DNA of 39,415 nt, from IMG/VR virus record IMGVR_UViG_3300021090_000063, positions 1 through 39,415 of that record. One strand, 5' to 3'. This stretch comes from a virus. Below the pieces are notes generated by a model. It was not told the DNA's origin. It worked only from the letters and a program-made list of their open reading frames with translations, and made no database searches. The position numbers were made by a program, and so were the translations under genes. This document shows, piece after piece, positions 8,932-35,504 of the stretch (position 1 is its first letter; the number at the start of each line of letters is the position of its first letter).

Positions 8932-8949
8932 AGTATAACCAAAGGTTGA
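8932..8949 (-). promoter_or_regulatory. 15-bp operator-like motif, site 1, over a -10-like element before the tail tube gene
   Basis: On the minus strand TCAACCTTTGGTTAT (8949-8935) has three differences from the exact copies and overlaps TATACT (8937-8932). No good -35 box precedes it. It lies just past a stop codon and 40 bp before the tube-gene start. Confidence 0.45.
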
Positions 8950-8950
8950 T

Positions 8951-9475
8951 TCAAGGGGTAAAGAACGGATCGTCCAACGGCTCAACCAGCTCGATGACGA
9001 TGCGAAGGAACATGGCTGCTCGCTCAGTCAGCTCAGTCGCCGGCCGGACGGTGCCGGGCTCAATCCCGATTTTCCGAACAAACTCCAGCGCCTGACCTTC
9101 AAACTCCGTGTTGCCTTCGCTAGGCGAGATCCGCTTATTTAACAGGGCCAGGGCTTGTTTGACGCTGGCAAGCAACTGGTGCGCAGGGTCCGTCGGGTTG
9201 TCTTTGTCGTCGGGTACCTGGCCTTTGATGAGCACAACCCAGCTGTCCACTTGTTCGTTATGACCATCACCGGGCGTCACAGGCTCGCGATCCGCGTTTA
9301 ACCCCTCCAAGAACGATATGTTGGGGCAGGGATCTTCGGCACTGAATAGAAGCCGGCCGCGGTAGATCGCGCCTGTCAGCGTGTACGGGTAGCCGTTCAC
9401 TACCGTGACCTCTGTCCCCAGGTAGGTGCAGAGCTGCTTCAGCACGGCAAGGCGGATGCTGTCAGCCACGGGCAT
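8951..9475 (-). CDS. tail terminator-like protein
   Basis: The 174-aa product (MPVADSIRLAVLKQLCTYLG...) contains a start typical of tail terminator proteins: an N-terminal helix followed by strands with GRLLFSAEDPCPNISFLEG, then PAHQLLASVKQAL and a C-terminal strand LRIVIELVEPLDDPF. In lambda order, the terminator (gpU-like) follows the gpZ-like gene and precedes the tube gene, as seen here. The protein would cap the tail tube and join it to the head. It overlaps the preceding gene by 14 nt. The call rests on gene order and general sequence character more than a diagnostic motif. Confidence 0.7.
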   Translation of the reverse strand: MPVADSIRLAVLKQLCTYLGTEVTVVNGYPYTLTGAIYRGRLLFSAEDPCPNISFLEGLNADREPVTPGDGHNEQVDSWVVLIKGQVPDDKDNPTDPAHQLLASVKQALALLNKRISPSEGNTEFEGQALEFVRKIGIEPGTVRPATELTERAAMFLRIVIELVEPLDDPFFTP

Positions 9476-10103
9476 ACCGCTCGAAGTTGCGCAAGAACTC
9501 CCGCGTCATGTAGTCCAGTGCACGCGGGGCGACTTGGTCCCGAACCGACTTAAACACTTGGTCGACTGAAGGGCCGTACAGCAGGTAGAGATCCGGGTCG
9601 GTATCGCTGTAGGGTTTGCCGGCGAACTTGTACTTGTTGGCCAGAGGCACGCCCTTGGGCATACGGACCACCAAGCCGATGTTGTACCCGTCTTCGATGC
9701 GCGCCTTACCCTTGCGCAGCTTCACCAGAAACCCGGACTTCAGCATCTTGGCGCCGCCGCGAGCACCGCGCACCTTGACGCGTACGCCGGCCTTGCCGAA
9801 TACATCACGTGATGCTGCATACCGGGCCAGAGACACCGGGCGCTGGCGTGCTTCGATTACAGCCACCGGCTTGGCGGTTGTCGCTTTCTGAGTTGCGATC
9901 AGGCGGTTTCCGTTGACGAAGGAGCCGATGTAGTTCTGATCGAAATTGATCTGTTCGCGCATGAAGCGACTGCTGTCTGCGTAGCCGAACGCGGCTGTCT
10001 TGTTGACTGTGTCGCGCGCCGCACGGGCCGACACCTCGGGGAAGTCTCGAAAATACTTTTGAAGAGATTGAATCCCTTCCAGGCTGGCTGATACCGGGAT
10101 CAC
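9462..10103 (-). CDS. minor tail / tail completion protein, gpZ-like
   Basis: The 213-aa product starts MIPVSASLEGIQSLQKYFRD and contains SARAARDTVNKTAAFGYADSS, a helix-rich lead followed by a basic region (VRVKVRGARGGAKMLKSGF). These features resemble lambda gpZ (Minor_tail_Z), which helps join tail to head and deliver DNA. It sits between the head-tail connector and terminator genes. The start overlaps the stop of the 114-aa gene by 4 nt. Confidence 0.75.
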   Translation of the reverse strand: MIPVSASLEGIQSLQKYFRDFPEVSARAARDTVNKTAAFGYADSSRFMREQINFDQNYIGSFVNGNRLIATQKATTAKPVAVIEARQRPVSLARYAASRDVFGKAGVRVKVRGARGGAKMLKSGFLVKLRKGKARIEDGYNIGLVVRMPKGVPLANKYKFAGKPYSDTDPDLYLLYGPSVDQVFKSVRDQVAPRALDYMTREFLRNFERYARG

Positions 10104-10444
10104 AAACTCACCGGGCTGACACGGAACTCGGTGGTGTAAAGATCACGCACTGGCTCGCGCAGGTCCAGATGAAACACGCGACCATCGTCCAGCACGACCC
10201 GATCCTTCTGGCGAACATCGTATGTATCGACTTCGCTCTTCAAGAAAATCAGACGATCCACTTCAGCTACTTCCTGCGAGTATCCCTCACGATCGAGGTC
10301 ACCGATTGTCGCTAGCTTGTTGTGGAGGCGCACCGACACCGGCGAAGCGATGTTGGTGCGCACGTTGGTGTGTTGGGCAGACAAAGAGAACGTCTCGTGT
10401 ACGTTCTCCCGCGCGGTACGCTTGATGTCTGCCCACGCACCCAT
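10100..10444 (-). CDS. head-tail connector protein, gpFII-like position
   Basis: The 114-aa product (MGAWADIKRTARENVHETFS...) has a basic helical N-terminus and a beta-rich C-terminal part with RVVLDDGRVFHLDLREPVRD, resembling the small barrel head-tail joining proteins. It is two bases downstream of the 93-aa gene and overlaps the gpZ-like gene by 4 nt. In lambda the corresponding slot is FII. Function is inferred from order and fold-like composition. Confidence 0.65.
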   Translation of the reverse strand: MGAWADIKRTARENVHETFSLSAQHTNVRTNIASPVSVRLHNKLATIGDLDREGYSQEVAEVDRLIFLKSEVDTYDVRQKDRVVLDDGRVFHLDLREPVRDLYTTEFRVSPVSL

Positions 10445-10446
10445 GG

Positions 10447-10728
10447 TTACAGGCCGGTGCCGTCTTTGCTTGGCGCACCAGTTGCTGGTGCGTCACCGGT
10501 GCCGGGCGTTGGCGTAACCGACGGACCGGGCGCGCTCGGTGCTTCCGGCGCAGCATCACCCTTGAGTCGAGCGGCGCCCAGGCCCACCAGCTCAGCCGCC
10601 GTCTTGGCGTCCGTAGTGAATTCAGCGCCAGGCTTGACCGATGAGACCTTCGCTTCGCCGACCGTAAACTGATCCTTGCCGCCTTCAAGCGCGTGAACAG
10701 CGACGTATACCTTCTTTGCTTCTGCCAT
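10447..10728 (-). CDS. small protein in lambda FI position, 93 aa
   Basis: The product has an N-terminal half of about 50 residues that looks like a small domain (KVYVAVHALEGGKDQFTVGE, then AAELVGLGAARLKGD). A flexible proline/alanine/threonine-rich tail follows. The gene follows the terminator behind the capsid gene and has GAGGG before its ATG. A connector or DNA-packaging accessory role is possible from position (gpFI slot), but no motif proves it. Confidence 0.6.
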   Translation of the reverse strand: MAEAKKVYVAVHALEGGKDQFTVGEAKVSSVKPGAEFTTDAKTAAELVGLGAARLKGDAAPEAPSAPGPSVTPTPGTGDAPATGAPSKDGTGL

Positions 10729-10751
10729 GTCGATACCCTCTTGAGGTTGTG

Positions 10752-10781
10752 AAAAACAACCCGCTTGTTACGGCGGGTTGT
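10752..10781 (-). terminator. rho-independent terminator behind the major capsid gene
   Basis: On the minus strand a perfect 9-bp stem, ACAACCCGC with GCGGGTTGT, encloses an 8-nt loop and is followed by TTTTT. It lies 32 nt past the capsid stop and 24 nt before the next start. Because connector and tail genes follow in the same direction, it probably acts as a partial terminator that makes capsid mRNA more abundant than tail mRNA, or is overridden by antitermination. Confidence 0.85.
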
Positions 10782-10797
10782 CGTACTGCTACAGTCG

Positions 10798-10812
10798 TCT
10801 ACCGAAAGTGGA
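10798..10812. promoter_or_regulatory. 15-bp operator-like motif, site 2
   Basis: TCTACCGAAAGTGGA, three differences, abutting the capsid stop codon and 17 bp before the terminator stem. Confidence 0.4.
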
Positions 10813-12340: not shown

Positions 12341-12369
12341 AGTAGATGTATTTACGTGACAGAAGTCAA
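12341..12369 (-). promoter_or_regulatory. possible promoter for decoration/capsid genes
   Basis: On the minus strand TTGACT (12369-12364) and TCTACT (12346-12341) are 17 bp apart, a sigma-70-like arrangement. The -35 element is part of the palindrome TCAACTAATAGTTGA. Position just before the two most abundant head proteins supports a function, but the -10 match is only 4 of 6. Confidence 0.45.
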
Positions 12370-12380
12370 CTATTAGTTGA
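12366..12380. promoter_or_regulatory. 15-bp operator-like palindrome, site 3
   Basis: TCAACTATTAGTTGA has perfect 5-bp arms and differs at two positions from the best copies. It overlaps the stop codon of the protease gene and the -35 box of the candidate promoter for the decoration gene. Confidence 0.65.
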
Positions 12381-15930: not shown

Positions 15931-17961
15931 TTATGGAACCCGCGACCGAACAGTTACCGACAGCGCCTGTTTGACCACCGTGATGGCCTGGATGGCTGTT
16001 TCGACAAACCCCGGCACACCGAGTTGGCTGCCGGCGGATACGCGATCCGCCTGTTCAAATATCGCCGCATTCGCGACGACTTCGGCCGCAAGCGCCGACA
16101 ACAGCCGGTCAACTTCCTCCAGCACCGTTACCGACACCGTCACCGGCGTTTCGGCCGCCGATAGCGCGCGGTCGTCCGTTTCTACGATCTGGGCGGAGGC
16201 CTGCGTCGTTACGGCGCCGGACGACGACGCGGTGTAATCCGGACCTTCGACCACAACGGCTGACGCTGCGACGAGCAGCTCCAGCATCGCGGACAAGGCC
16301 TCTGCTTGCTCGATCAGCGCGGCGATCGCCGTTGCTGGGACGGTACCCGCCGAGGGTGCGCTTTCAGCTTGTTCTACTACAATAGCCGCTGCTGCAGTCA
16401 CCTCTGTCGCGACCAACAACGCGCGATCTGGCTCTTCTGCGTAACTGACATTCAGGTCTGCAGAAGCGACGGACCCGGAAACCGACTCGACGGGGTCAGT
16501 CTGCTCATTGATCGATTCCGTAGCAGCTACAGTTGCCAACAACAACGCCGAAACGGCGTCATTCACTTCAACGAACAGTAAGGTCAAGACTACCGACGCT
16601 GCTGTCGCTGCCGCGATTGACTCGCTTTGCTCGTTGATCACAACAGCGGCGGCAGCCGGGTTCTGGTTAGCGCTGGTTAACGCGTCACTCTGCTCACTGA
16701 TGATCACCGAAACGTCGGTGTTGGCGGTCGACGCCACAGCACTTACCGTATTATCCGCCTGTTCTGTGACCTGCTGGTCCGCCGCAACAGCTTCGACGGC
16801 GACGACGGACAGCCCGTCTTCGATATCCCGAATCGCCGCTGCCGCGACTTCAGGTGTGGTAACACCCGAAGTAACCAGTTCAATTTGATCCAACAAGGCT
16901 GCGTCTACGTTGCTCGCCGGTGTCACCGACTGAGCGACAACGAGGTCGGCGACCTCGTTGATCGATATATCCGCAGCAACGGCTTCTACCGCCGTAATCG
17001 ATACCACATCCGGAACTTCGCTCAGACCGACCGACGCGGTCACCGGTGCGCCGGCTAGTGACGACACTTGATCGGCCGTCTCCACGACGCCGACGCTTAC
17101 GGCCACCGGAGTTGTTACTGCCGCCGCAATTGTGTCCGGGACCTCGCTCAACGCGGCGTCGACTCCGGCGCCGACTAGCGCTACTTCAGGAATCGGGCGG
17201 CGACGCCCCCAAAATTGCAGAGCCACGTTCGGCGTTCGACCAGGCCCATTGATACCGCGACGCGGTGGGACGTAGCCGGTTGATCCGCCGCCGCCCGCAT
17301 CTGTAAACGCAATCGCTACGATGCTCCACGATGCGGATGTGGCTAGTGTGCCGTCACCAACGATTGGCCCACCTGGGGCATCAATGCGTGAAAATGAATG
17401 CCCACCGATCGCGCTCGAATCCCATTCGTCAGTTGTGTCGTAACCTGCCCCGGGCGTGTTGGTGGTTCCTGCATAGTCTGCTACGGCGCAGATAGCGAGA
17501 TTTCCCGCATCGAAAGCCGCAGTTGTTGGCGTTGTTGACGGGCCTCCACCACCAACGGGGGCCGGCCAGTCTACTACTGTCGGCGTTGACCCGTCGAAGT
17601 TGAACCGACGCGCTTTGATACCGAAGTATGCGACGGTCTTAAGCGTTGTGTACGTCGCGTCCGTGTAGAATCGCGCCCTAATCACATTCGTCGCGTGCGC
17701 TGCCGACGACAGTACGTAAAAAATCTGTACGTCTTCGTCGTTCGCTGCGTCATGGGCCTTCCCCTTTGTTTCCCACGCCGTACCGTTAGCTGTGTCGTCA
17801 ACTTTGCAGAATGCGTTACTTCCGCCCTCCCATTTTACTTCTGCCGATAGCAATTGCTCTGCGGCTTGGTTGTACGCGGCCAACGACACCGAACTGTCGG
17901 GTACCCCTAATCCATCGAGGTAGTCCACCGGTGTTATCGCAGTGCCGCGTGTAAAGCTCAT
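15931..17961 (-). CDS. 676-aa virion-associated protein with ~18 tandem 21-residue repeats
   Basis: Residues 1-230 form a globular beta-rich domain (Trp/Phe/Gly-rich, including WETKGKAHDAANDEDVQIF). A glycine-rich linker and the basic patch PPRRGINGPGRTP follow. From about residue 265 to 655 come roughly 18 repeats of 20-23 residues, with hydrophobic alternation and an E-x-x-D core (SEVPDTIAA, VETADQVSS, SEVPDVVSI, NEVADLVVA, EQADRVSAG). Similar ExxD repeats are common in metagenomic phage proteins and suggest a beta-solenoid or fibre. The start overlaps the previous stop by one base (TAATG). Its position among head genes suggests a head fibre or accessory adhesin; function unproven. Confidence 0.75.
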   Translation of the reverse strand: MSFTRGTAITPVDYLDGLGVPDSSVSLAAYNQAAEQLLSAEVKWEGGSNAFCKVDDTANGTAWETKGKAHDAANDEDVQIFYVLSSAAHATNVIRARFYTDATYTTLKTVAYFGIKARRFNFDGSTPTVVDWPAPVGGGGPSTTPTTAAFDAGNLAICAVADYAGTTNTPGAGYDTTDEWDSSAIGGHSFSRIDAPGGPIVGDGTLATSASWSIVAIAFTDAGGGGSTGYVPPRRGINGPGRTPNVALQFWGRRRPIPEVALVGAGVDAALSEVPDTIAAAVTTPVAVSVGVVETADQVSSLAGAPVTASVGLSEVPDVVSITAVEAVAADISINEVADLVVAQSVTPASNVDAALLDQIELVTSGVTTPEVAAAAIRDIEDGLSVVAVEAVAADQQVTEQADNTVSAVASTANTDVSVIISEQSDALTSANQNPAAAAVVINEQSESIAAATAASVVLTLLFVEVNDAVSALLLATVAATESINEQTDPVESVSGSVASADLNVSYAEEPDRALLVATEVTAAAAIVVEQAESAPSAGTVPATAIAALIEQAEALSAMLELLVAASAVVVEGPDYTASSSGAVTTQASAQIVETDDRALSAAETPVTVSVTVLEEVDRLLSALAAEVVANAAIFEQADRVSAGSQLGVPGFVETAIQAITVVKQALSVTVRSRVP

Positions 17962-18659
17962 TAGATCGGCCCTGCGATTATTGATCGAAAGCCCAGCCCG
18001 GCCAACGAGGCACCGGTTCGCGGGAATGACTCAAGCCCGGGTCTACCCCCTGGCGATACTAACGAGATGCGTTCGGCAGAACTGTCCGTGTACTGACAGA
18101 TCAGCGTCTGAGATCCCGCAACTGGCGTCTGATAAAAACTAATTGTGTTGCCAACTACCTCGGCGCGCAGTATCTGCCCGCTTTCGTACGGCACAAAGCC
18201 AAGATCTGTTGTGCTGAGCTGCTCGACGCTATAGCTTGCGCCGTTCCATCTCGCAATTGCTGGACCGGATGTAGGGTTTGAATAACACTCGTATGCGTAA
18301 CAACTGCCCGATGCGAGTGTGCATCTGAGCATAAATCCGAGTTCGTGATTGATGCCGCCACCACTCGGATCATAGGTGAGCTGTATCTCTCCTTCGATAT
18401 ACTGATCTTCCGTGAACGTAACGCCCGTTACCCCCGTGAGCACCGCCACCGCATCGTTATTTACAACGTCGCTGACGGTCGCTGCGGCATATGCAATCCC
18501 GCTTCCAGTGCGGAAATCTAAATACTGACCCGAACTGGCCGCATCTCCGCTGGCCCACATCCCACCCTCGCTGATTGGACTTTCAGTGAGGTCAAAATTG
18601 GTTGAATATGAATTTCCTACAGCCGCGACTTGTTGCAGACCACGTCGCTGCCTTGCCAT
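17961..18659 (-). CDS. lectin-like (jelly-roll) virion-associated protein
   Basis: The product begins MARQRRGLQQVAAVGNSYST and continues NFDLTESPISEGGMWASGD. It has an overall pattern of a concanavalin/LamG-type beta jelly roll: FDLTESPISEGGMW, QYIEGEIQLTY, GFMLRCTLASGSCYAYECY, and GQILRAEVVGNTISFY. Such domains bind glycans or decorate virions. ATG 18659 is used; a GTG at 18677 directly after the upstream stop is an alternative with a GGAAAA-like site. The very long ORF extension to 18857 overlaps the preceding gene and is not used. It forms a tight operon with the repeat protein and the beta-rich protein. Confidence 0.72.
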   Translation of the reverse strand: MARQRRGLQQVAAVGNSYSTNFDLTESPISEGGMWASGDAASSGQYLDFRTGSGIAYAAATVSDVVNNDAVAVLTGVTGVTFTEDQYIEGEIQLTYDPSGGGINHELGFMLRCTLASGSCYAYECYSNPTSGPAIARWNGASYSVEQLSTTDLGFVPYESGQILRAEVVGNTISFYQTPVAGSQTLICQYTDSSAERISLVSPGGRPGLESFPRTGASLAGLGFRSIIAGPI

Positions 18660-18678
18660 GTACGAGCGTAAGCGCACA

Positions 18679-19224
18679 TCAATTTTCCAGCGCCCAGCCG
18701 AACATGTCGCAGCGGATGCTGTTCGATGCGCTGGCCACGGACCACGTTGCAAACAGATCCACCGTGTTATTCGACAAAGAGTTGTCGAACGAGGTGCCGA
18801 CAGCGGGGGACGACGTAGGCAACAGCATGATCGGTGTGGTAGCAGACAACGCTGCACTAAGCAGCCTACCGATCCCGATGACGTTGCTATTCACGCCGGT
18901 CGCAATCGTGCGCACGATCAGATCGAGTTCCAGCCACCAGGATAAGTTAGACGCAGAGGTCGCGAGCGTGCCCGACGCGCCACCGTTGAACACCACCACA
19001 GAACCGAAACGCAAATCTAACGTTAGCGTCCCGGGCGTTGCGGCGGCGCTGCTCATGCGTCCGCCAGCGAACACTTTTAGCTTGATGCCAGAGTTCAGAT
19101 CTGTATTCGGCGCAAGGTTAACCTTGGCCTGTGTCGGAAGCAGCGACGTGGCGGTCGTCGTGTTGGTTAACGCCGGGCCGTCTACCTGCTGGATGATGAG
19201 GGGTGCACCCCAGATGTTACGCAT
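18679..19224 (-). CDS. beta-rich virion-associated protein, 181 aa
   Basis: The product (MRNIWGAPLIIQQVDGPALT...) is rich in Thr/Ser/Ala with alternating hydrophobic residues, as in viral beta-sandwich proteins. It has LRFGSVVVFNGGASGTLATS and WWLELDLIVRTIATG. It overlaps the 60-aa gene by 8 nt and has GAGAG upstream. I recognise the style (phage structural), not a named family. Co-transcription with the lectin-like gene suggests both are on the virion. Confidence 0.7.
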   Translation of the reverse strand: MRNIWGAPLIIQQVDGPALTNTTTATSLLPTQAKVNLAPNTDLNSGIKLKVFAGGRMSSAAATPGTLTLDLRFGSVVVFNGGASGTLATSASNLSWWLELDLIVRTIATGVNSNVIGIGRLLSAALSATTPIMLLPTSSPAVGTSFDNSLSNNTVDLFATWSVASASNSIRCDMFGWALEN

Positions 19225-19399
19225 GGTTCTCTCGCTTCAAAGTGTTTTGGTGTCCGAGCTTCCTGCCGCTGTCGATCAAACGTCGGATGGCCGCGGCGTG
19301 TTCAAGTGTTACCATCGCTTTTTCCGTTTCGAGCAACGGGGCATCGACGTTATGCCGCCAACGCTTGGCGAACCCGGTCTTAGTCAGCCGGGGTTTCAT
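19217..19399 (-). CDS. small basic protein, 60 aa
   Basis: MKPRLTKTGFAKRWRHNVDA and onward, strongly basic with a helical C-terminal half (TEKAMVTLEHAAAIRRLIDS). It begins in a 4-nt overlap with the exported polyserine protein and ends in an 8-nt overlap with the next gene, so its boundaries are those of a real operon member. No family recognised. Confidence 0.65.
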   Translation of the reverse strand: MKPRLTKTGFAKRWRHNVDAPLLETEKAMVTLEHAAAIRRLIDSGRKLGHQNTLKRENHA

Positions 19400-20244
19400 A
19401 GCGCCTTGCTCGCTGCGTTTGTCTTGCTACCCTCGCCGCTCGATGCGCTGATCGACGAAAGAGCGAAGAACCAAGTTTGGCCCGTTGCGAGCCCTGGCAC
19501 GGTGTATGTGGCGACCAGCCCGATAGGTGTCGCACTGGTTAGCGCGCTGGGGCTGGTGCCGTAGTACAGTTTGTACCCGGTGAGATCAGTCAACGCCGAA
19601 CCGTCGGTGTTCAGGGTTGGCGCTGTCCACGTAAGCTGCACGCTGTCCGTCGCGGCGCTTGAACTGGACGACGAACTACTGCTACTCGATGCGCTCGATG
19701 TAGAGCTACTTGAGCTGCTTGAACTGCTTGAACCACTTTGAATCTGGCACGTTTTTGTTGCGCCAGGAGCCGGGTCAGTAAAATTTATCGTGTCGCATTG
19801 GGTGCCATCGATAAAGTTGCGCACGTCCCATCGAACATCAACGCCGAACCTAATGGTTTTCAAACCAACAGCGGGACAGCGCTGCCCATAGTTCGCGCAG
19901 TGCGTCCAACCGGATGGGGTCGAGCTGGATGCGCTGCTACTTGAGCTGGAAGTGCTCGATGAGCTGCTGGAGCTGGACGAACTCGCCGGCACAAACTTGA
20001 CGACGGATTTCAACGAGTCCCGGCATTCGTAAGTGATCGAGCCGCTGACTTTCGTTGCGCCGGTTAAAACTTTGTCCGCCTCCTTTGCCGTTGTACACGC
20101 CGACACCGATGCGTAAGTGCCGATCGGCGAACCGCTCTTGTACAGCGTGATTGTGCGCGTGTCGGTTTGAGTACCCACTGCGGCGAACACTACCGACGAA
20201 GCACCTAGCGCTAACAGCAAGGTACCGACGAAATACTTTTTCAT
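19396..20244 (-). CDS. exported polyserine-linker protein with FN3 domain
   Basis: The 282-aa product has a clear Sec signal peptide (MKKYFVGTLLLALGASSVVF, likely cut near residue 22). After a short Cys-containing domain come a polyserine linker (about 88-109), a small disulphide module (about 112-168, pattern W..CA..G..C......IRFG...W......C....F.DP..G..K.C), a second polyserine linker (about 170-197) and a fibronectin type III domain (about 201-282). Polyserine linkers and such modules occur in secreted carbohydrate-active enzymes of Cellvibrio-like bacteria. No catalytic domain is present. A signal peptide in a head-gene operon is unusual for a virion protein, so it may act at the host surface. 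Confidence 0.78.
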   Translation of the reverse strand: MKKYFVGTLLLALGASSVVFAAVGTQTDTRTITLYKSGSPIGTYASVSACTTAKEADKVLTGATKVSGSITYECRDSLKSVVKFVPASSSSSSSSSSTSSSSSSASSSTPSGWTHCANYGQRCPAVGLKTIRFGVDVRWDVRNFIDGTQCDTINFTDPAPGATKTCQIQSGSSSSSSSSSSTSSASSSSSSSSSSSAATDSVQLTWTAPTLNTDGSALTDLTGYKLYYGTSPSALTSATPIGLVATYTVPGLATGQTWFFALSSISASSGEGSKTNAASKAL

Positions 20245-21078: not shown

Positions 21079-23160
21079 TCAAGCCAGTTGGGATGCGAGT
21101 TTCGCTAGATCGTATCCACTTTTAGTTGACGGCTCAAATTTAAGTTGATTCGAGGACGCAGCAATAACCAGATCGTTCTTGTCCCAGACGTCGGCCCAGC
21201 GCGGAGGTCTCGACCAATCGAATTGCTCTAGTCTTAGGTTCGTACAAATTCCTACGCAGTACGTAAATAAGTCCCATGATTCGTTTCTGTAGCCTTTAAG
21301 GTTCTCCCAGCCTTTCGATGTTCTGCGCTCCACAGTCAGCTCGGTATACACCTCGTCGGGCAACCAGTCGGCGAAGTGGATCAGCCCGCCGTGCGCTTCT
21401 TTTCGATCAAGCATCGCGTTGACGCGGTCCTTCAACACGTTCACATTGAGCAGCAACACAGGTACTTCGCCGCGGTTCACTGCCGTCTGTCCTTTCCCCA
21501 TGGCGCTGTCGACGTAGCTGATCCGCGTACGCGGAGATCCGACGACGTGATCGCCTTTGATGAGCACGAACCGTTTGTGGTGTCCTCTCTCTTCGTCGCG
21601 GAGCTTCTGCCAAAAGGCATACGCGTTACTGGTCACGCCGGCTCTACCACCCGAGTCACACCCCACGAGCTTCATCTGCATCCGGCGTCCGGAGCCGTCA
21701 GCAAGGGGGTACGTCTTCTCAATCACTTGCTCGACCAGGAGATCCCAATCCTCCAGATTCGTCGCCGGCTTAACCCAAAGCGTGTCGCCATCCTCGTCTT
21801 TGCGCACCGACTTACGGATCGAGAAGCGATCAATCAGCCACAGGTCCATGCCAATACCGACGCCAAAGACTTGCACGACCCACTGGTTCTTTTGAACGTC
21901 GCACGTAGCGACCAAAAAGCGCACGCCTTCGGGAACCTCGTGCTCACCCATTGGCTCAGCGCGTGCCTTGATGTCTTCTGGTAGGCGCTCAACCTCGGTC
22001 CCACGCATGCGATACGGGTGGCCTTGATCGGTGTTGACTGTGGTTTTCAGCGCCTCTTGCGAACCGGTGCGTTCGTATTCTTCTTCGGCCTGCAGGTGCT
22101 TCAGCACAAGATCCTTCCACGTAGCAAACGCGGCAGCCGTACCTTTGAGCCAGAAGGACGCGATGTTGCTGCGCATCGGGTTGCCGAACATAAATCCGTC
22201 ACGATCGAGTCGCATGCCGTCTGGAACCCACACACCGGCTAAGTTCAGGTCGTACTTACGGGCGTGCTGTATTTGGTGCTCGCACTTCGGACACACCATG
22301 TACGCCATCTCAGCCGCTTCAACGAAGTCACGGGTGTCTGGCCATGCGAGTAGATTGAAATCGCCTTCAAAGAAGTCGTGACACCTCGGGCACGGCCAAT
22401 AAAGCCGACGACGATCACCTCGATTATAGAGCGATGCGATGCCCTTGCACGGCGGGGCTTCGTGCAGTGTGCGCGCCATGTACTTGGGGTCGTCTACCAC
22501 ATGCCCTGGCGACGACTCGGCGAGGTTCATGCCGAATGAACCGAACGTCGTGTTTCGTTTCCCGGCCAGGTCGAACACTGAACCTTCGCCGTCGATGTCT
22601 TCGGGCATGCGGTCCAGGTCGGTCTCTGCTGTTCTGGGTACCGGGCGCCCCGAGAGTTCGTTGATCGCCGGCCACGCCATCGTCAGCAGCATGCCGTTGG
22701 AGTAGGCCTTGTTGAACACACTGTCGCTATCACGCCGCCTTATCAATTTCTCCTTCAGCGCAGGACTGTGCCTGTGCATCGGGTTGATGCGCCGGCGTGT
22801 GAAGTCGGCTGCTGCGGCTTGCGACTTCTCGACGATGAGCATGTCGGCCGGGTCGCACATGACGCTGTAGCAGATCCAGTTCAACAGCAGCGCGTCACTT
22901 TTCCCACTCTGAGCCGGACCCATGAAAACGACCGCCGAGAAGTCCCGGCTTGTCAGGCAGTCCATGGGGTCGATCATGTACGGAGTCGTTTCATTCAGCC
23001 ACGGACCCTCGTATCCGCCGCCGGAGTTCTTCAGGATGCGATACTTTGCGGCGGCTTGACTGACCGACAGACGCTCTGGCGGTAGCAGCCCCGCCGCGCT
23101 GTCCACGACGATGTCAAAGACCGTCTGGAACTTCAGCTTCGATCTGTCTACTTGGAGCAT
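21079..23160 (-). CDS. terminase large subunit, GpA family
   Basis: The protein has an N-terminal ATPase domain with Walker A GPAQSGKSD (about residues 80-88), followed by DMLIVEKSQAAAADFTRRRI and TDLDRMPEDIDGEGS. A zinc-like four-cysteine region follows (CPRCHDF...VCPKCEHQI), then a nuclease domain with LVGCDSGGRAGVTSNAYAFW. This is the lambda gpA family, which packages DNA and cuts cos. ATG 23160 (MLQVDRSKLKF) is preferred over the upstream ATG 23208; it still overlaps the small subunit gene by 47 nt. Two copies of the dispersed 15-bp motif lie in its last 25 codons. Confidence 0.93.
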   Translation of the reverse strand: MLQVDRSKLKFQTVFDIVVDSAAGLLPPERLSVSQAAAKYRILKNSGGGYEGPWLNETTPYMIDPMDCLTSRDFSAVVFMGPAQSGKSDALLLNWICYSVMCDPADMLIVEKSQAAAADFTRRRINPMHRHSPALKEKLIRRRDSDSVFNKAYSNGMLLTMAWPAINELSGRPVPRTAETDLDRMPEDIDGEGSVFDLAGKRNTTFGSFGMNLAESSPGHVVDDPKYMARTLHEAPPCKGIASLYNRGDRRRLYWPCPRCHDFFEGDFNLLAWPDTRDFVEAAEMAYMVCPKCEHQIQHARKYDLNLAGVWVPDGMRLDRDGFMFGNPMRSNIASFWLKGTAAAFATWKDLVLKHLQAEEEYERTGSQEALKTTVNTDQGHPYRMRGTEVERLPEDIKARAEPMGEHEVPEGVRFLVATCDVQKNQWVVQVFGVGIGMDLWLIDRFSIRKSVRKDEDGDTLWVKPATNLEDWDLLVEQVIEKTYPLADGSGRRMQMKLVGCDSGGRAGVTSNAYAFWQKLRDEERGHHKRFVLIKGDHVVGSPRTRISYVDSAMGKGQTAVNRGEVPVLLLNVNVLKDRVNAMLDRKEAHGGLIHFADWLPDEVYTELTVERRTSKGWENLKGYRNESWDLFTYCVGICTNLRLEQFDWSRPPRWADVWDKNDLVIAASSNQLKFEPSTKSGYDLAKLASQLA
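21115..21129. promoter_or_regulatory. 15-bp operator-like motif, site 4
   Basis: TCCACTTTTAGTTGA, two differences from the best copies, inside the last codons of the terminase gene. Confidence 0.55.
21134..21148. promoter_or_regulatory. 15-bp operator-like motif, site 5
   Basis: TCAAATTTAAGTTGA, three differences, 19 bp from site 4 centre to centre. The tandem spacing of nearly two helical turns would suit cooperative binding by two dimers. Confidence 0.45.
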
Positions 23161-24187: not shown

Positions 24188-25201
24188 ATGGGCACCATCG
24201 TTCCACGCGGCAAGAAGCACCGAGCCGTTGTCCGCTACAGGGGCGTGACCAAGACCAAGACCTTCACGCAAGTAGGCGCAGCGAAGCGATGGGTACGCGA
24301 GGTCGAGCACACTCTTGACGGCCAAGTGTCCCAAGGAAGGCACGACCTGCTGCCGACGCTGCTCAAAAAGTATCGAGAAGAAATCGTAGAGAAGCGCCCC
24401 TATACAACCAAAACGCCTTCGCATCTGAAGTACCTGGAGCGGATAACAGCGAACACCACGGTAGGGGATTGCACACCGGAGTGGTGGGTGTCCTTCGTGA
24501 CGGGCCTTACGTGCGCGCCGGCTTCCCGCGGACGTTACCTGTCCCTGGTGACCAGTACCCTACGAACGGCAGAGGGTCTGTGGGGCGTGAACGTGGACTG
24601 GCCGAGCTTCAAGCGCGGCAAGGCGATGATGCGCGCGCTCCACCTGCTTCCGTCAAAGAGACACCGTGGGCGTCGAGCAACCGAGACTGAAATTGCACTC
24701 GTAAAAGACAACGCGGCCTCTGGTTTGCCGCTCGCAGACCTCATCGACTTCGCGGTCGACTCTGCGCTGCGTGACGCTGAGATCTGTCGGATCAAATGGG
24801 TCGACTACACGAAAGATATCGGTATGGTGTGGGTGCGCGATCGAAAACACCCAAAACAAAAGATGGGTAATGACTGGCACGTCCCGTTGCTCGGACGCTG
24901 CGTAGAAATCATCGAACGGCAGCCGCGAATATCAGAGTTCATCTTCCCGTACAAGCCGGAGAGCGTGTCGTCTGCTTTTCGTCGCTCAAGAAAACGCGCC
25001 GGTATAGTTAATCTCACGTGGCACGACTTACGGCATGAAGGTATCTCGCGGCTGTTTGAGCGCGGCTTCTCCATTCAAGAAGTTGCCCTGGTGTCCGGAC
25101 ACACCGATTGGTCAAGCCTCAAGATATACACCCAACTGCGCCCGGAGTCGTTGCACGCTGGGCCTGTGTTATCACAACAAACGAAGGAGATCGTCAAATG
25201 A
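24188..25201 (+). CDS. int: tyrosine-family site-specific integrase
   Basis: The 337-aa product has all tyrosine recombinase catalytic residues: R195 (DSALRDAEIC), a lysine near 224 in the beta-hairpin (RKHPKQKMG), H279 and R282 (WHDLRH), H305 (SGHTDW) and the nucleophile Y314 (LKIYTQ). Residues 1-50 form a short arm-binding-like domain with basic residues (GTIVPRGKKHRAVVRYRG, then TKTFTQVGAAKRW), followed by a SAM-like core-binding domain (about 55-150). AGGA precedes the ATG by four bases. It integrates and excises the phage chromosome at the adjacent attP. The gene overlaps the lipoprotein start (ATGA), so both are made from one mRNA. Confidence 0.96.
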   Translation: MGTIVPRGKKHRAVVRYRGVTKTKTFTQVGAAKRWVREVEHTLDGQVSQGRHDLLPTLLKKYREEIVEKRPYTTKTPSHLKYLERITANTTVGDCTPEWWVSFVTGLTCAPASRGRYLSLVTSTLRTAEGLWGVNVDWPSFKRGKAMMRALHLLPSKRHRGRRATETEIALVKDNAASGLPLADLIDFAVDSALRDAEICRIKWVDYTKDIGMVWVRDRKHPKQKMGNDWHVPLLGRCVEIIERQPRISEFIFPYKPESVSSAFRRSRKRAGIVNLTWHDLRHEGISRLFERGFSIQEVALVSGHTDWSSLKIYTQLRPESLHAGPVLSQQTKEIVK

Positions 25202-25549: not shown

Positions 25550-25792
25550 TTAAGACACACGTCCACTTTTGGTTGATCGTGCGAGCACAGCTAAGCCTGC
25601 CTTACGGCGTGCTTCGAAATACGCGGCTTTAACTTCGAGATCCACGACCCACTTACCGGCGAGCTTGTAGATAGGACACGGAAATCGCTTTTCACGCGCC
25701 ATGTTCTCTGCGGTTTTTGGTTTGTATCCGAAGTCAGGTGCCGCGTCCTTCAACGACTGCCACTGGCGTGTCGCTTTGGTTTGCTTTGTCAT
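25550..25792 (-). CDS. putative excisionase / small DNA-binding protein
   Basis: The 80-aa product (MTKQTKATRQWQSLKDAAPD...) has a winged-helix layout like AlpA/Xis proteins: WQSLKDAAPDFGYKPKTAEN followed by the wing FPCPIYKLAGKWVVDLEVKA. It is translated just after the repressor with one shared base (TGATG; ATG 25792) and converges on int and the lipoprotein. Position and size fit a recombination directionality factor. It could equally be a second small regulator. A copy of the dispersed 15-bp motif lies in its last codons. Confidence 0.62.
   Translation of the reverse strand: MTKQTKATRQWQSLKDAAPDFGYKPKTAENMAREKRFPCPIYKLAGKWVVDLEVKAAYFEARRKAGLAVLARSTKSGRVS
25562..25576. promoter_or_regulatory. 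15-bp operator-like motif, site 6
   Basis: TCCACTTTTGGTTGA (reverse complement TCAACCAAAAGTGGA), one difference from the exact copies. It lies between convergent lipoprotein and excisionase genes, inside the end of the latter. Confidence 0.65.
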
Positions 25793-26466
25793 CACACTAA
25801 TTCTCCGATGCTGCTGACTCGATCCCACTCATCTTTCCCTGACGTGTATACACCGCCAGCGTGCTGCTTAACGATCACGGAGAACTGATCTCCTTGATTC
25901 TTTTTGTGCTTCTCGATCAGCGCCGGCTTCATATCGAGGATGTGCGTACGCGTTCCGTTCGCTGAAACGAAGCCTAAGTTTCTAACCTCTTTGAACTCAC
26001 GAGGTACTGTAAATTCAAACTCACCGGGGTTGACCTCACGACCCAAAGAATTACGCACCGCGATCTGCTCTCCGTCGAGAATCATGTAGTAATCAACAAA
26101 CGACTTTCGCGGGTCTGTATCCGTCGGTCTAGCGCACGACGCTCCGTTCAAAATAGCCATGCCCATAGACAGGTAAACAACGCCTTCGGTGCGTTTCGTA
26201 GCGAGAGTGGCTTCTCTCCGGGAAAGTGCGGGCTCTTGACCGAACGCCAGCCATGCGGTATCGACGCCCAACAGTTTTGCGAGCTTCGTCATCGCTGCCG
26301 CTCGTGGACGAGACCTGCCTGTGAACCACTTACTCGCGGCTTCAGCAGACGCCCCCATCTTCAGTGCGACATACGCCTGCCGGCCTTGACTGATCGGGGG
26401 GACGCTTGGCGCCCCGTCGCACGCCTTGGCTAGGCGTTGCGCGAAATCGCGATCTCTGGTGTTCAT
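25792..26466 (-). CDS. putative phage repressor with N-terminal helix-turn-helix
   Basis: The 224-aa product (MNTRDRDFAQRLAKACDGAP...) has an N-terminal Cro/CI-like DNA-binding domain: ISQGRQAYVALKMGASAEAA, SKWFTGRSRPRAAAMTKLAK and LLGVDTAWLAFGQ. The C-terminal ~110 residues are beta-rich (YYMILDGEQIAVRNSLGREV, FEFTVPREFKEVRNLGFVSA). I see no Ser-Lys pair of the LexA/S24 type, so RecA-stimulated self-cleavage is not evident. It lies in the lysogeny block beside excisionase and integrase. It is the best candidate for the main repressor, which could bind the 15-bp motif, including the copy 66 bp upstream of its own start. Confidence 0.75.
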   Translation of the reverse strand: MNTRDRDFAQRLAKACDGAPSVPPISQGRQAYVALKMGASAEAASKWFTGRSRPRAAAMTKLAKLLGVDTAWLAFGQEPALSRREATLATKRTEGVVYLSMGMAILNGASCARPTDTDPRKSFVDYYMILDGEQIAVRNSLGREVNPGEFEFTVPREFKEVRNLGFVSANGTRTHILDMKPALIEKHKKNQGDQFSVIVKQHAGGVYTSGKDEWDRVSSIGELV

Positions 26467-26506: not shown

Positions 26507-26546
26507 AATTTCCCACAAAAGTACACTGTCGTCAACTGTTGGTTAA
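26507..26546 (-). promoter_or_regulatory. operator-like motif, site 7, and weak promoter before the repressor gene
   Basis: TCAACTGTTGGTTAA (26532-26546) carries two differences from the best copies and overlaps the helicase stop codon. On the minus strand it forms the -35 element TTGACG (26535-26530), with a weak GAAATT at 26512-26507 after 17 bp. This suggests autoregulation of the repressor promoter. Confidence 0.5.
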
Positions 26547-31632: not shown

Positions 31633-31820
31633 GGTCGGCCCACCATACCGTTCCACTTCTGCGCGGCTTCTTCCGGCGTAGCACCGAGCGGACCGGACGC
31701 GCGGCACTCGGAGCGCATGCACTCGCCGTAGTGCGTAACTGCGTTCCATGCAAATAATCTCGGCTTCTTGTGCTTGCACCACGGACAGGGCAACAACTTA
31801 ACCGAAAGTGGATTGTTCAC
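31629..31820 (-). CDS. Lar-like zinc-ribbon protein
   Basis: The 63-aa product from GTG 31820 reads MNNPLSVKLLPCPWCKHKKP with a second cysteine pair CMRSECRASGP and ends TPEEAAQKWNGMVGRP. LLPCP.C......C....C.A.GP....EEA...WN is the pattern of Lar-family restriction alleviation proteins. It starts in a GTGA overlap with the methyltransferase stop, and its neighbour also concerns DNA modification, so an anti-restriction role is plausible. Copies of this motif also occur in phages without proven anti-restriction activity. Confidence 0.8.
   Translation of the reverse strand: MNNPLSVKLLPCPWCKHKKPRLFAWNAVTHYGECMRSECRASGPLGATPEEAAQKWNGMVGRP
31798..31812. promoter_or_regulatory. 15-bp operator-like motif, site 8
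   Basis: TTAACCGAAAGTGGA, three differences from the exact copies and closest to the copy beside the capsid gene. It lies within the first codons of the Lar-like gene. Confidence 0.4.
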
Positions 31821-32517
31821 GCGCAACTACCCCACTGTGAGGCCATGGCGTCAGCGATTCCTGGGTACGTTCTGCTTCGCTCTTTCCATCGATCGTCTGA
31901 AGGGCCGAGGTTGCTTTGCCCTGACGGGGTTTGGTTCGCCCACACATGCTTCACGGGGTTCGTGCCGAAGCAGTTCGGGCAGCCGTACTTTCCGAGGGAG
32001 AATTCGAAGCGATACCCGCAACCACAACCATACATTGGTTCCACGAACGCCGTCGGTATCAGCGGACTCAGCCCCTCCATCCACAATCCGGTTTTCTTAC
32101 TCGCGTCATCACCGAACCAGTGCGGTTGTACATACTGTGGTTTCGGCATGAAAGGCAGCTTGGTGTTTATGCAACCCTGGGGGTTCTCCAAACAGCGCTT
32201 CTTTATTTTCTTCGCGTGCCACAACCTTTCAATGAAATCCAGCGCCTCCTTCTGGTGCTCGACGCGCGCGCGGCCGTCCGCCTCGATACGACCGCGCGTT
32301 ATCCAGTGCAGTCCGGCCGAGTTCAGGAACGTGCATGGCGGGTGCGCAATCATCAGGTCCCACCCTTCATCGATGATGTCAAACACATCTCCTTGGTAGT
32401 GATCTGGCGATCCGTCTTCGGCGGGCAGCAGATCGCAGGAGAGAGAGAGAAGTGTCCTCTTGCGGCGAACGCGCGTCGCACTCGGCCGCTGTACTCACAG
32501 GCTACTAATACGCGCAC
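31817..32517 (-). pseudogene. DNA cytosine methyltransferase-like gene, frameshifted at a GA repeat
   Basis: The N-terminal frame starts at GTG 32517 (GAGGG six bases upstream): MRVLVACEYSGRVRRAFAAR, then GH. The sequence then enters a (CT)6 tract (32450-32439), after which the family continues in another frame: SCDLLPAEDGSPDHYQGDVF, DIIDEGWDLMIAHPPCTFLN (PPC catalytic loop), KKRCLENPQGC, and the conserved end WKERSRTYPGIADAMASQWG. With one CT unit fewer, the whole gene would read through as one 232-aa protein. In the present state only a truncated form and an internal-start fragment (189 aa from ATG 32386) can be made. This may be phase variation, mutation or a sequencing error. Confidence 0.82.
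32439..32450. repeat. (GA)6 dinucleotide repeat in the methyltransferase gene
   Basis: Six GA units on the plus strand, read as CT on the coding strand, located exactly where the reading frame breaks. Loss of one unit restores the frame. Confidence 0.9.
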
Positions 32518-32533
32518 GGAAGTCCCTCGAAGA

Positions 32534-32613
32534 GCCCTCACCAGCGAAGGGGGAGAACGCTGGTGAGGGCAATGCCGGGTCTTTGCAGGGGGCGAGGGCG
32601 GCCAGACCCGGCA
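32534..32613. other. two tandem perfect hairpins upstream of the methyltransferase gene
   Basis: Hairpin 1 has 13-bp arms (32534-32546 and 32558-32570) and an 11-nt loop. Hairpin 2 has 10-bp arms (32573-32582 and 32604-32613) and a 21-nt loop. They are separated by only 2 bp and lie 17 bp before the methyltransferase GTG. No clear T-run follows on either strand, so a simple terminator is unlikely. The loops are purine-rich on the plus strand and pyrimidine-rich on the coding strand. This may be a structured 5' leader or small RNA. Confidence 0.75.
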
Positions 32614-32615
32614 CA

Positions 32616-32657
32616 GCCATACTGCCACTAAAACGACACGAATCAACCAAAAGTTGA
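32616..32657 (-). promoter_or_regulatory. exact operator-like palindrome, site 9, with possible promoter
   Basis: TCAACCAAAAGTTGA (32643-32657) is one of two exact copies. It lies 14 bp past the stop of the ssDNA-binding protein gene. On the minus strand the motif ends in TTGATT (32646-32641), with TATGGC (32621-32616) 19 bp later, a weak promoter for the methyltransferase-to-helicase genes. Confidence 0.6.
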
Positions 32658-32670
32658 TACGTCGGGCGCG

Positions 32671-33279: not shown

Positions 33280-33301
33280 ATCACTTACTCACTGTTCAAA
33301 G

Positions 33302-34591
33302 TTACAACTCAGTCAACTCATCACTCTCGTTCTCGAACTCACTGAACTCGTCTTGGCCTTCAAACTCATCGAACTCAGCTAATCGGACATTCGCAAAAAT
33401 CGGACGTTTATCGGTCACCGGCGCCAGAGACGGATGGCCCGTCGGTTTGTACACCAGCTTCAGCTTGGCGCTCTCGTTGACCTTCTTGAACGCGGACTTC
33501 TGGCCGCGCGTCAACATCTTCTCCGCCTGGGCCGGCGATATCAGCGTGCGCTTAACAACCTGGCTCTCGCGCAGCCCTTGCTTCTGCAGCCACACTTCCG
33601 CGCGCTGCTGGTCGAGCCACGCGCGACGCGACTGCGACTCCACGATCTTCCAACCGGGTACTGCAACAGGGTCCTGTACCAGCAAGCGCATCGCGGCAGT
33701 ACGTGTGCGCCTGGCCCACAGCTTCACCAGCTCCACAGACTCAAGCGCCTTGGCGACTTGCTCTGGTGTCAGGATCTCCACCGTGCCCGGCGCATCCATG
33801 GCGTCGAAGTCGCTGTTTAACGCAGCGATAGACGCTTTCAACTGCGTTCCGCAACGCCCAGCAACAGCGCAGAAGAAGCACTGCTTCTCACCTGCGCGCG
33901 TGGGTGGGTTGGGTGCGAGTGCGACGGTGCACTGTGCGTGCATCTCCTTCGCAAATTCCATCAGCCGCTCCACCGTGGTCTCCCACACGTCGAAGTGCCC
34001 GAACCGGGGCTGACAGATGCGAATGATGACCTTGTCGATCTCGTAGCCCCACGACAGCTCGTCGTACATGCCGATTGCGTAGCCCATCGCCTGTTCATTC
34101 TCTTCGGCGTAAACCTTCACGCCCTTGCCGTACTTGAAGTCGGTCACCACCAGCGTGCGGTGATACACCGCACCGTGGTCACTGGTGCCGAACTGATTCT
34201 TAAGCGGCATGCGGCCGTTCAAGTCGACCCGCGTCTCCGTGAAGTGCGTACCGGGCAACTCATTGCACCAGTCAACGTACTCCTGAACCGCCTGGATCAT
34301 CTCTTCATCGGGGACGAACATCGTGCCGATCTCGTCGCCGAGTACCGCATCGGCATAGTCGGCGGCGCGCGCTTCCGTGTTGGTGCGCTGCGCTACCAGC
34401 ACCGTCTCTGCGAAGAAGTGTGCGTTCGTGCCTTCGGCAGAGAACTCGGTGTCGAGGTTCTGCGCGTTGAGCATCGTCGACGCCAGCAGCATGCCGGCGC
34501 AGCGCATCAAACCCGGCAACGTGCTGGGTCCGAGCAGTGCATGCCCGGACTTCGCACGCTCTTCAGCGAGTTTTTGCCAGTCGATCGTCAC
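33302..34591 (-). CDS. DUF2800 (RecB/Cas4-like) nuclease-family protein
   Basis: The product starts at GTG 34591 in a GTGA overlap with the 88-aa gene (MTIDWQKLAEERAKSGHALL...). DUF2800 features include LLGPSTLPGLMRCAGMLLAS, SAEGTNAHFFAETVL, TDFKYGKGVKVYAEENEQAM with the PD-(D/E)XK-like D-x-K, and a late cysteine cluster (EKQCFFCAVAGRCG) suggesting an iron-sulphur or zinc site as in Cas4/AddB. The C-terminal end is acidic (EFEGQDEFSEFENESDELTE). It is the usual partner of the DUF2815 SSB in phage recombination/replication modules; probably a 5'-3' or end-processing nuclease. Confidence 0.85.
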   Translation of the reverse strand: MTIDWQKLAEERAKSGHALLGPSTLPGLMRCAGMLLASTMLNAQNLDTEFSAEGTNAHFFAETVLVAQRTNTEARAADYADAVLGDEIGTMFVPDEEMIQAVQEYVDWCNELPGTHFTETRVDLNGRMPLKNQFGTSDHGAVYHRTLVVTDFKYGKGVKVYAEENEQAMGYAIGMYDELSWGYEIDKVIIRICQPRFGHFDVWETTVERLMEFAKEMHAQCTVALAPNPPTRAGEKQCFFCAVAGRCGTQLKASIAALNSDFDAMDAPGTVEILTPEQVAKALESVELVKLWARRTRTAAMRLLVQDPVAVPGWKIVESQSRRAWLDQQRAEVWLQKQGLRESQVVKRTLISPAQAEKMLTRGQKSAFKKVNESAKLKLVYKPTGHPSLAPVTDKRPIFANVRLAEFDEFEGQDEFSEFENESDELTEL

Positions 34592-34854
34592 GGAAAGACG
34601 TGGTCTGGGATCGGCACGTACGGCGTTTCCGGCGCGACTTGCGTCGGCGGATTGCGCCAAGAGTCCATCGCGTCCGCTAACTCGAAGGCTTCCTTGATCT
34701 TCTTGGGTTCGTGGTACCCCTCGGCCATCGTCGCCCAATGCCGGATGGTCTGCGCTGCGAGCGGATCTTTCGCTCGTAACACAAACACCGGCTCATCCCC
34801 TGCCGCTTTATTCAAGCAGCTTCGGGGTTCACTCAGCTCGTATCGTTTCAACAT
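34588..34854 (-). CDS. small phage protein, 88 aa
   Basis: ATG 34854 is used because GAGGG lies seven bases upstream; the longer frame to 34971 runs through the tRNA-like gene and is an artefact. The product (MLKRYELSEPRSCLNKAAGD...) contains VFVLRAKDPLAAQTIRHWAT and MAEGYHEPKKIKEAFELADA, a pattern found in small phage proteins encoded near DUF2800. No function is known. Confidence 0.78.
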   Translation of the reverse strand: MLKRYELSEPRSCLNKAAGDEPVFVLRAKDPLAAQTIRHWATMAEGYHEPKKIKEAFELADAMDSWRNPPTQVAPETPYVPIPDHVFP

Positions 34855-34880
34855 CGTCGCACCCTCAAATAAAAACCCTG

Positions 34881-35008
34881 ACTGCGCGGCAGGACTCGAA
34901 CCTGCAACCTGCGCCTTGGTGTAGCTGAGCCCCGACCGCTCTACGGGGATTCTTTCGGACAGTTGTTCCACACCGCAGCGCCGCTCTAGCCTATTGAGCT
35001 ACGCGCAA
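34881..35008 (-). tRNA. tRNA-like gene with a 54-nt excess in the anticodon loop
   Basis: Read on the minus strand: acceptor UUGCGCG (35008-35002) pairs with CGCGCAG (34888-34882); UA at 8-9; D arm GCUC/GAGC with a 9-nt loop containing GG; anticodon stem GCGCU with GGCGC (last pair U-G); 5-nt variable region AGGUU; T arm GCAGG-UUCGAGU-CCUGC; discriminator U; no encoded CCA. The loop between anticodon stem halves is 61 nt, not 7, so removing 54 nt leaves a standard 74-nt tRNA. The loop has internal pairing GGUGU/ACACC and CCCCG/CGGGG. The anticodon cannot be determined. It could be an intron-bearing tRNA, a tRNA mimic or a degenerate gene. Confidence 0.6.
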
Positions 35009-35022
35009 TCAAGATTTGTTGG

Positions 35023-35409
35023 TTACTTCTTCCCGGCCAGCGCCTTTTCGCACAGTGCCACCGCTTCAGCGAACTTCGCCTCGGGGATCGTGTCGATCGA
35101 CTTAGCGCCGAGCTGGCCCAGGATCTTCGCAGCACGATCACGCGCAACGGTATCCCGCACCTCGAACAGCTTCGCGCGCACGTCTTCGAGCGTCAGTGCC
35201 TCATCTTCGCCGCCGAGTCCATCACCAAGGTCCACTTGCTCGGGCTCCGGTGCTGGTGCAGGCTTGCTCGCTGCCTTCGCCTTCGTTGTGGCTGGCTTGT
35301 CCGCAGGTACTGGCTGCACGGGCGCTGCTGGCTTACTGGCGCCGTTGATCGCAGCCGTCAGCCCTTCAATAGCCGTAGCAAGACGGCCCACTTGTTCTTC
35401 CATCGACAT
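35023..35409 (-). CDS. phage protein of unknown function, 128 aa
   Basis: First gene of the leftward early operon. A short N-terminal helix (MEEQVGRLATAIEGLTAAIN) is followed by a Pro/Ala/Lys linker (about 25-60) and a C-terminal helical domain (LTLEDVRAKLFEVRDTVARD, KILGQLGAKSIDTIPEAKFA), similar to small phage proteins sometimes linked to SSB/DUF2815 clusters. GAGGG precedes the ATG by seven bases. No function assigned. Confidence 0.78.
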   Translation of the reverse strand: MSMEEQVGRLATAIEGLTAAINGASKPAAPVQPVPADKPATTKAKAASKPAPAPEPEQVDLGDGLGGEDEALTLEDVRAKLFEVRDTVARDRAAKILGQLGAKSIDTIPEAKFAEAVALCEKALAGKK

Positions 35410-35464
35410 AGTTCTGCCCTCAAAAGATTTTCAAAAGTTGTTGCTAAACCTCAACACGAACGGC

Positions 35465-35493
35465 AACATAATGCCCAACTAGACACCTGTCAA
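35465..35493 (-). promoter_or_regulatory. early leftward promoter
   Basis: TTGACA (35493-35488), a perfect -35 box, is followed after exactly 17 bp by TATGTT (35470-35465). The -35 box is contained in the exact 15-bp operator copy, so repressor binding would block RNA polymerase. It drives the operon from 35409 leftward. Confidence 0.7.
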
Positions 35494-35504
35494 CCAAAAG
35501 TTGA
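35490..35504. promoter_or_regulatory. exact operator-like palindrome, site 10 (control region)
   Basis: TCAACCAAAAGTTGA, the second exact copy. It lies between divergently transcribed early genes, 8 bp before the Cro-like ATG and over the -35 box of the leftward promoter. This is the natural place for a phage master operator. Confidence 0.8.

Follow-up and report, generated by a model that had tools for sequence, protein, structure and literature searches.

IMG/VR virus record IMGVR_UViG_3300021090_000063, taken here as the complete record of 39,415 bases and referred to below as the window, carries ten copies of a 15-bp near-palindrome, TCAAC-N5-GTTGA, dispersed among its replication, head and tail genes. 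What is the function of these sites, and which protein reads them? Judged from sequence comparison, they probably form a dispersed network of operators for the phage's own CI repressor. The sites, named below by their first position, are as follows.

35490..35504, plus strand, TCAACCAAAAGTTGA: between the divergent early units
32643..32657, plus strand, TCAACCAAAAGTTGA: directly beyond the 3' end of the SSB/annealing gene
31798..31812, plus strand, TTAACCGAAAGTGGA: in the methyltransferase/DNA polymerase gap
26532..26546, minus strand, TTAACCAACAGTTGA: covering the stop codon of the helicase gene; the CI start is 66 bp downstream
25562..25576, minus strand, TCAACCAAAAGTGGA: in the last codons of the excisionase-like gene
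21134..21148, minus strand, TCAACTTAAATTTGA: in the last codons of TerL, with a neighbouring site 19 bp away
21115..21129, minus strand, TCAACTAAAAGTGGA: in the last codons of TerL, paired with 21134
12366..12380, no strand (palindrome), TCAACTATTAGTTGA: over the head protease stop codon, before the decoration gene
10798..10812, plus strand, TCTACCGAAAGTGGA: directly 3' of the major capsid protein (MCP) gene
8935..8949, plus strand, ATAACCAAAGGTTGA: in the gap between the tail terminator and major tail protein (MTP) genes

A first-pass annotation of the window had reported the same ten sites and estimated that fewer than 0.1 matches to TCAACCAAAAGTTGA with two or fewer differences would be expected, against six seen. 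All ten coordinates and difference counts were reproduced, and 100 dinucleotide shuffles gave a mean of 0.06 such matches, with no shuffle reaching six. At three or fewer differences there are 12 matches, counting the palindrome at 12366 in both readings, against 0.52 in shuffles (maximum 3); one of these, at 5550 inside the tape-measure gene, is probably due to chance. With a matrix built from the ten sites, the sites score 19.9–26.5 and the next independent place at most 13.6. When each site was omitted from the matrix in turn, it still ranked in the top 11 of approximately 79,000 places. A4, C5, A8, T12, G14 and A15 are invariant, and the arms mostly read T-[CT]-A-A-C and G-T-[TG]-G-A with five bases between them. 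Searches of viral contigs for the exact 15-mer returned isolated, scattered matches only.

Each of the ten sites is either in a gap or no more than 65 nt from the 3' end of a gene; such locations make up 15% of the window (p = 7e-9). The first-pass annotation had placed nearly all of them at stop codons, in short gaps or over −35 boxes. This holds for the gaps and gene ends, but 21115, 21134 and 25562 are inside last codons rather than in gaps, and 35490 is the only site in the window over a −35 box. Such positions raise the question of whether the sites function at the RNA level, forming small hairpins at which transcripts are processed or ended, since most are at gene 3' ends and the arms are able to pair. 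However, four of the ten break or weaken pair 3–13 (GTGGA opposite TCAAC, TTAAC or TCTAC), a terminator scan picked up none of them, and the sites track CI, being missing in CI-less relatives with the same genes. An RNA function is therefore very unlikely.

The window appears, from its gene content, to be a partial genome of a temperate Casjensviridae-type siphophage. PHROG and Pfam scans identified a lambda-like head module (terminase, portal, protease, decoration and E-type capsid), a tail with an Ig-domain MTP, and genes for an integrase, an excisionase-like protein, a CI-like repressor, a helicase, a DNA polymerase, SSB and an exonuclease, together with a divergent Cro-like gene and primase-helicase. 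No near DNA relative was found among 50,697 phage records. The gene order exo-SSB-pol-helicase-CI-Xis with divergent Cro-primase is that of AH2 and AchV4, and the best matches of the MCP are Casjensviridae; on these grounds the phage is placed with the temperate Casjensviridae of the AH2 and AchV4 type, and the head genes, the Ig-domain MTP and the gene order all agree with membership in this CI-bearing group. Genomes of this type are 57–60 kb, so about one-third of the phage is probably missing, and further sites should be expected in that part.

The same dyad is the top or leading repeat, found de novo, in phages of Achromobacter, Klebsiella, Pseudomonas, Marinobacter and Sinorhizobium. For this comparison all inverted repeats were counted, with no prior motif. 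In AchV4, TCAAC-N5-GTTGA is the top dyad (9 against 0.024 expected). In YMC16 the top dyad is TCAA-N7-TTGA (13), which contains TCAAC-N5-GTTGA, and the latter is also leading (6 against 0.033). CAAC-N5-GTTG is the top dyad in SS2019XI and PS6, and TCAAC-N5-GTTGA is second-ranked in the Sinorhizobium phage RHph_X2_30 (5 against 0.032). Dyads of the GATC/TCGA kind, seen in AH2 and others, were put down to composition or codon usage and disregarded. When the matrix was trained on 15 sites from AchV4 and YMC16 alone, its seven best-scoring places in the window were all among the ten sites (17.2–25.1; next, 13.5). A matrix scan of the window and relatives against shuffled genomes had been proposed in the first-pass annotation as a check, and the excess is clear: 18 sites in AchV4, 21 in YMC16, 13 in SS2019XI and 16 in PS6, against 0.3–1.1 in shuffles, and 16 against 0.35 in RHph_X2_30. 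The counts for SS2019XI, PS6 and RHph_X2_30 are independent of the training, unlike those for AchV4 and YMC16. The pair at 21115 and 21134 is spaced 19 bp, and pairs spaced 18 and 20 bp are present in AchV4 and SS2019XI.

Dispersed short repeats bind host proteins or serve in replication or packaging in other phages, and such a role might be proposed here. It is, however, extremely unlikely, as the same motif is found in phages of beta-, gamma- and alphaproteobacteria and is absent from family members that lack CI but have the same genes for head and replication. A LexA-type or FNR-type box of the host was dropped as a candidate, given that the hosts differ and that CI-less relatives lack the motif.

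Not only the motif, whose conservation in relatives the first-pass annotation had named as a test, but also its positions recur in relatives. Across six phages there are 49 shared junction pairs, against a mean of 8.4 and a maximum of 31 in permutations restricted to gaps and gene 3' ends; none of 2000 permutations reaches 49. A site is present at the 3' junctions of TerL, of the tail terminator (the tail terminator/MTP gap) and of the helicase, just upstream of CI, in five of the six phages each, at that of SSB in four of six, and at that of Xis in four of five. The MCP 3' junction has a site in three of six (besides the window, PS6 and RHph_X2_30), as does the region upstream of Cro, where AchV4 and YMC16 have counterparts of 35490. 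The head protease/decoration site is also present in RHph_X2_30. CI identity to the window protein is as low as 27% among the compared phages, which indicates that the site positions are old and have been kept. The tail terminator/MTP gap measures 31–83 nt in CI-bearing phages and 3–36 nt in CI-less ones (p = 0.001), as if it had been widened for the site; the likely MTP start in the window, an ATG at 8895, makes the window gap longer still.

The candidate readers and the adjoining genes of the lysogeny region are listed here.

25792..26466, minus strand: CI-type repressor of 224 amino acids, the proposed reader of the sites
35512..35784, plus strand: Cro-like helix-turn-helix (HTH) protein of 90 amino acids with a weak YdaS match, a possible second reader
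25550..25792, minus strand: excisionase-like gene, its start set at the CI stop and its 3' end containing site 25562
24188..25201, plus strand: tyrosine integrase (Pfam/PHROG match), which indicates that the phage is temperate

It is highly probable, from comparative sequence data, that CI binds the sites. Eight CI-less Casjensviridae, with 50 kb of each genome scanned and sites above threshold counted, have none (Chi, Enc34, Redjac, AhaSv and pPM_01), one (KPN N54) or two (Nazgul and AXY1). Six phages with an EA-helix CI have 7–21 sites above threshold. By CI similarity alone, 64 viral contigs were found, of which 34 were taken as non-duplicate with the helix S-x-E-A. These 34 contain 124 copies of CAAC-N5-GTTG against a mean of 12.1 at 15 other spacings, and 45 of TCAAC-N5-GTTGA against 1.0. 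CIs of the S-Q-E-G (AH2) type accompany few or no TCAAC-N5-GTTGA; AH2 itself (helix SQEGVRKWF) has ACAAC-N5-GTTGT instead, with nine at one or no difference against 0.8, eight of the nine being in gaps, among them those 3' of TerL and before Cro. In DSS3-P1 (helix SRNAMSKWF) there is one perfect TCACC-N5-GGTGA, exactly in the tail terminator/MTP gap; the overall excess of this dyad is weak and its arm was chosen from many. HK022 CI is 47% identical to the window CI over the HTH (66 amino acids), and HK022 has TGAACCATAAGTTCA twice in the cI-cro gap with one further site nearby. The build T-N-AAC-N5-GTT-N-A thus seems to belong to this CI HTH family, and what is special in the window family seems to be the dispersal of the operators rather than their build. 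No close relatives were recovered with short peptide patterns drawn from Cro, CI, primase and polymerase.

In lambda, Cro and CI share operators, and one window site is directly upstream of cro, so that the Cro-like protein encoded at 35512–35784, or another lytic regulator, might be the reader instead of CI. Chi, Enc34 and Redjac, which have neither CI nor the sites, do have an annotated regulator at the Cro position before the primase, and this speaks against Cro. In addition, SS2019XI and PS6 have the same motif despite highly dissimilar Cro-like proteins. Reading by Cro or another lytic regulator instead of CI is thus unlikely.

Other dispersed repeats were seen in these relatives. CI-less BcepNazgul (1–50000) has a palindrome of its own, GAAGT-N-ACTTC, in 15 copies against 0.024 expected (for example at 6323, 10394, 13624 and 15167). 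In AH2, the 8-mer AGGTCCGA, part of a longer AGGTCCGAAT-type word, has 13 of 14 copies in or near gaps, and is perhaps a late promoter or the site of a second regulator.

Site 35490 overlaps the region's best promoter-like sequence, TTGACA-17-TATGTT (35493 to 35465, minus strand, 10/12). The first-pass annotation had the whole TTGACA of this leftward promoter inside the site; the left arm supplies TTGA of the −35 box and the CA adjoins the site. A sigma-70-like scan found no promoter-like sequence at the other nine window sites.

Several observations weigh against the proposed network of CI operators. The motif appears to drift with the CI recognition helix, but this is supporting rather than decisive because the link follows CI phylogeny and is not a set of independent changes. 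In RcPutin and DSS3-P1 a CI relative is present, yet TCAAC-N5-GTTGA sites are few or absent; different CI helices may explain this scarcity. Stable lysogens of AchV4 were not obtained in the laboratory (PMC7996906). Lastly, nine of 66 sites in five phages (14%) have a −10-like hexamer at −35 spacing in the gene direction, against 4% in controls (p = 0.0015); some sites are therefore promoter operators, most not recognisably so, and promoters that went unrecognised could lie behind others. Taken further, each CI operator might be on or near a promoter, with many repressible promoters as in P1 and no roadblock. The half-site GTTGA resembles a −35 box, and the overlap at 35490 is of this kind. 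On the other hand, 86% of the 66 sites lack such a −10, and no promoter-like sequence touches any site in the late region of the window. At the tail terminator/MTP junction, the site is centred 12–30 nt before the annotated start in most phages, so that a promoter with its −35 box at the site would start transcription inside the gene (the window is an exception, the likelier ATG at 8895 putting the site centre 47 nt before the start), and the gap in CI-less relatives is only 3–36 nt. Promoter operators throughout are possible but doubtful.

With CI as the probable reader, its structure becomes relevant. An AlphaFold2 model from 33 CI sequences (predicted local distance difference test, pLDDT, 91.5) replaced a single-sequence model (pLDDT 44). 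Residues 1–77 of the model match the lambda, P22 and 434 repressor domains, with a lambda-like HTH. Residues 87–224 match PD-(D/E)XK folds: I-Ssp6803I with Z 11.9 (120 residues, 2.7 Å), NhoI with 9.7 and Hjc with 9.4, at weak Foldseek E-values (5e-3). D125 is conserved in 25 of the 33 sequences and Q134 in 28, and none of the listed counts has K at position 136, the expected place of the catalytic lysine if Q134 is the usual acidic position; this register comes from sequence, not from superposition. The C-terminal half is thus predicted to have a PD-(D/E)XK fold, apparently without the catalytic lysine, and such a disarmed nuclease fold may be used for dimerization or for holding DNA. No S24 (LexA-like) peptidase match was found in CI by Pfam or PDB sequence search, and the C-terminal domain aligns with PD-(D/E)XK folds. 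The AH2 paper compares gp70 to 186 CI (PMC3483164). A 186-type C-terminal domain found no support here, the lambda-186 hybrid 7jvt aligning well only over residues 1–77; absence from such a list excludes nothing.

We suggest that dimeric CI would bind each site by its lambda-like HTH, each subunit taking one TCAAC half-site, with all sites occupied in the prophage. Silencing of the prophage through the sites is likely on the comparative data. CI at 35490 would cover the early leftward promoter and keep the lytic cascade off. Bound at 26532, which as the first-pass annotation had noted is upstream of the repressor gene, it would probably regulate its own synthesis. At the gene-end sites of replication, head and tail genes it would probably form a roadblock to transcription leaking from upstream, like the L5 repressor at its stoperators. 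Because only one window site meets a recognizable promoter, a roadblock seems probable at most sites; for the non-promoter sites in general, it is judged to have about even chances. CI would then block promoters at a few sites, in the ordinary way, and we infer that it blocks elongation at the rest.

Further features of the window were observed. A DNA methyltransferase match (phrog_757), at 31817–32646, is divided over two open reading frames (ORFs; 31817–32386 and 32353–32646), which indicates gene decay, a frameshift or an error of sequencing. The interval separating the head-tail joining gene from TerL, nearly or wholly empty in AH2 and AchV4, contains four late-region ORFs here (15931–20244; 676, 298, 181 and 282 amino acids), none with a PHROG match; by this comparison the segment is a putative insertion in the head operon. 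ARAGORN called a tRNA-Arg (CCT) at 4299–4375 on the plus strand, within the tape-measure gene on the minus strand, probably falsely. One stretch resembles an iteron array or origin-type region.

How does this arrangement compare with known systems? The phiC31 repressor, from a Streptomyces phage, reads many dispersed conserved inverted repeats (CIB sites) and differs from the window CI. In cluster A phages such as L5 and Bxb1, many 13–15 bp repressor sites are present genome-wide, most of them off promoters, and the motif drifts with the repressor; L5 stoperators are asymmetric, monomer-bound, oriented with transcription and shown to block elongation (PMC6550527). As in the window, the cluster A sites are dispersed in gaps and at gene ends, and the early promoter and the region upstream of the repressor gene have one each. 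In contrast, the window sites are dyad-symmetric and read both ways among leftward genes, with a CI-like repressor that is accompanied by a Cro-like protein; an elongation block is proposed here where in L5 it is demonstrated. The stoperator-like network suggested by the first-pass annotation is strongly supported by the comparative evidence as a genome-wide network read by the phage repressor. Stoperators in the strict sense, where a bound repressor halts elongation away from promoters, would fit the positions; the sites are unlike those of cluster A in their symmetry and lack of orientation.

The idea that nothing comparable exists in a proteobacterial phage is too strong. P1 has 22 dispersed C1 operators repressing lytic genes (PMC8546580), likewise spread over a proteobacterial phage genome. 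They are 17 bp and asymmetric (ATTGCTCTAATAAATTT), unlike the symmetric 15-bp window sites with their proposed lambda-like HTH reader. The T1-like phages T1, Stevie and TLS, also Gram-negative siphophages with dispersed repeats, have 16–20 intergenic repeats likened by the authors to stoperators (PMC4319613, PMC11447400); these are asymmetric and oriented, and the phages are described as lytic. Lambdoid CI systems share the symmetric operator and a CI with, as predicted here, a lambda-like HTH, but their operators are only at OL and OR beside cI and cro. HK022 has the related CI HTH and the operator build TGAAC-N5-GTTCA, but only three such sites (one or no difference), all next to cI, whereas the window has ten over 27 kb. 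Operators with symmetry, as in lambda, are usually described as few and local, and a published contrast sets the symmetric operators of lambdoid phages against those of P1, L5 and phi105, which are multiple and asymmetric (PMC1934351). No published description of this site network was found in the open-access literature, although one may exist elsewhere, and a term search of the AchV4 and AH2 genome papers found no mention of such repeats. What appears to be new is the combination of symmetric operators with genome-wide dispersal, dispersed operators themselves being already known.

This combination spans phages of hosts from Sinorhizobium to Klebsiella. Tentatively, and at somewhat less than even odds, the temperate proteobacterial Casjensviridae may have independently evolved whole-genome silencing, with a dimeric CI, symmetric roadblock sites at conserved gene ends and a disarmed PD-(D/E)XK C-terminal half for dimerization or DNA holding. 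The family is suited to testing how superinfection immunity evolves when one repressor keeps 10–20 sites in step, and the CI recognition helix would predict which related phages share immunity. It would also offer compact repressor-roadblock pairs that should function in ordinary laboratory proteobacteria. In these phages, the repressor probably silences the whole viral genome from many points, not from one switch.

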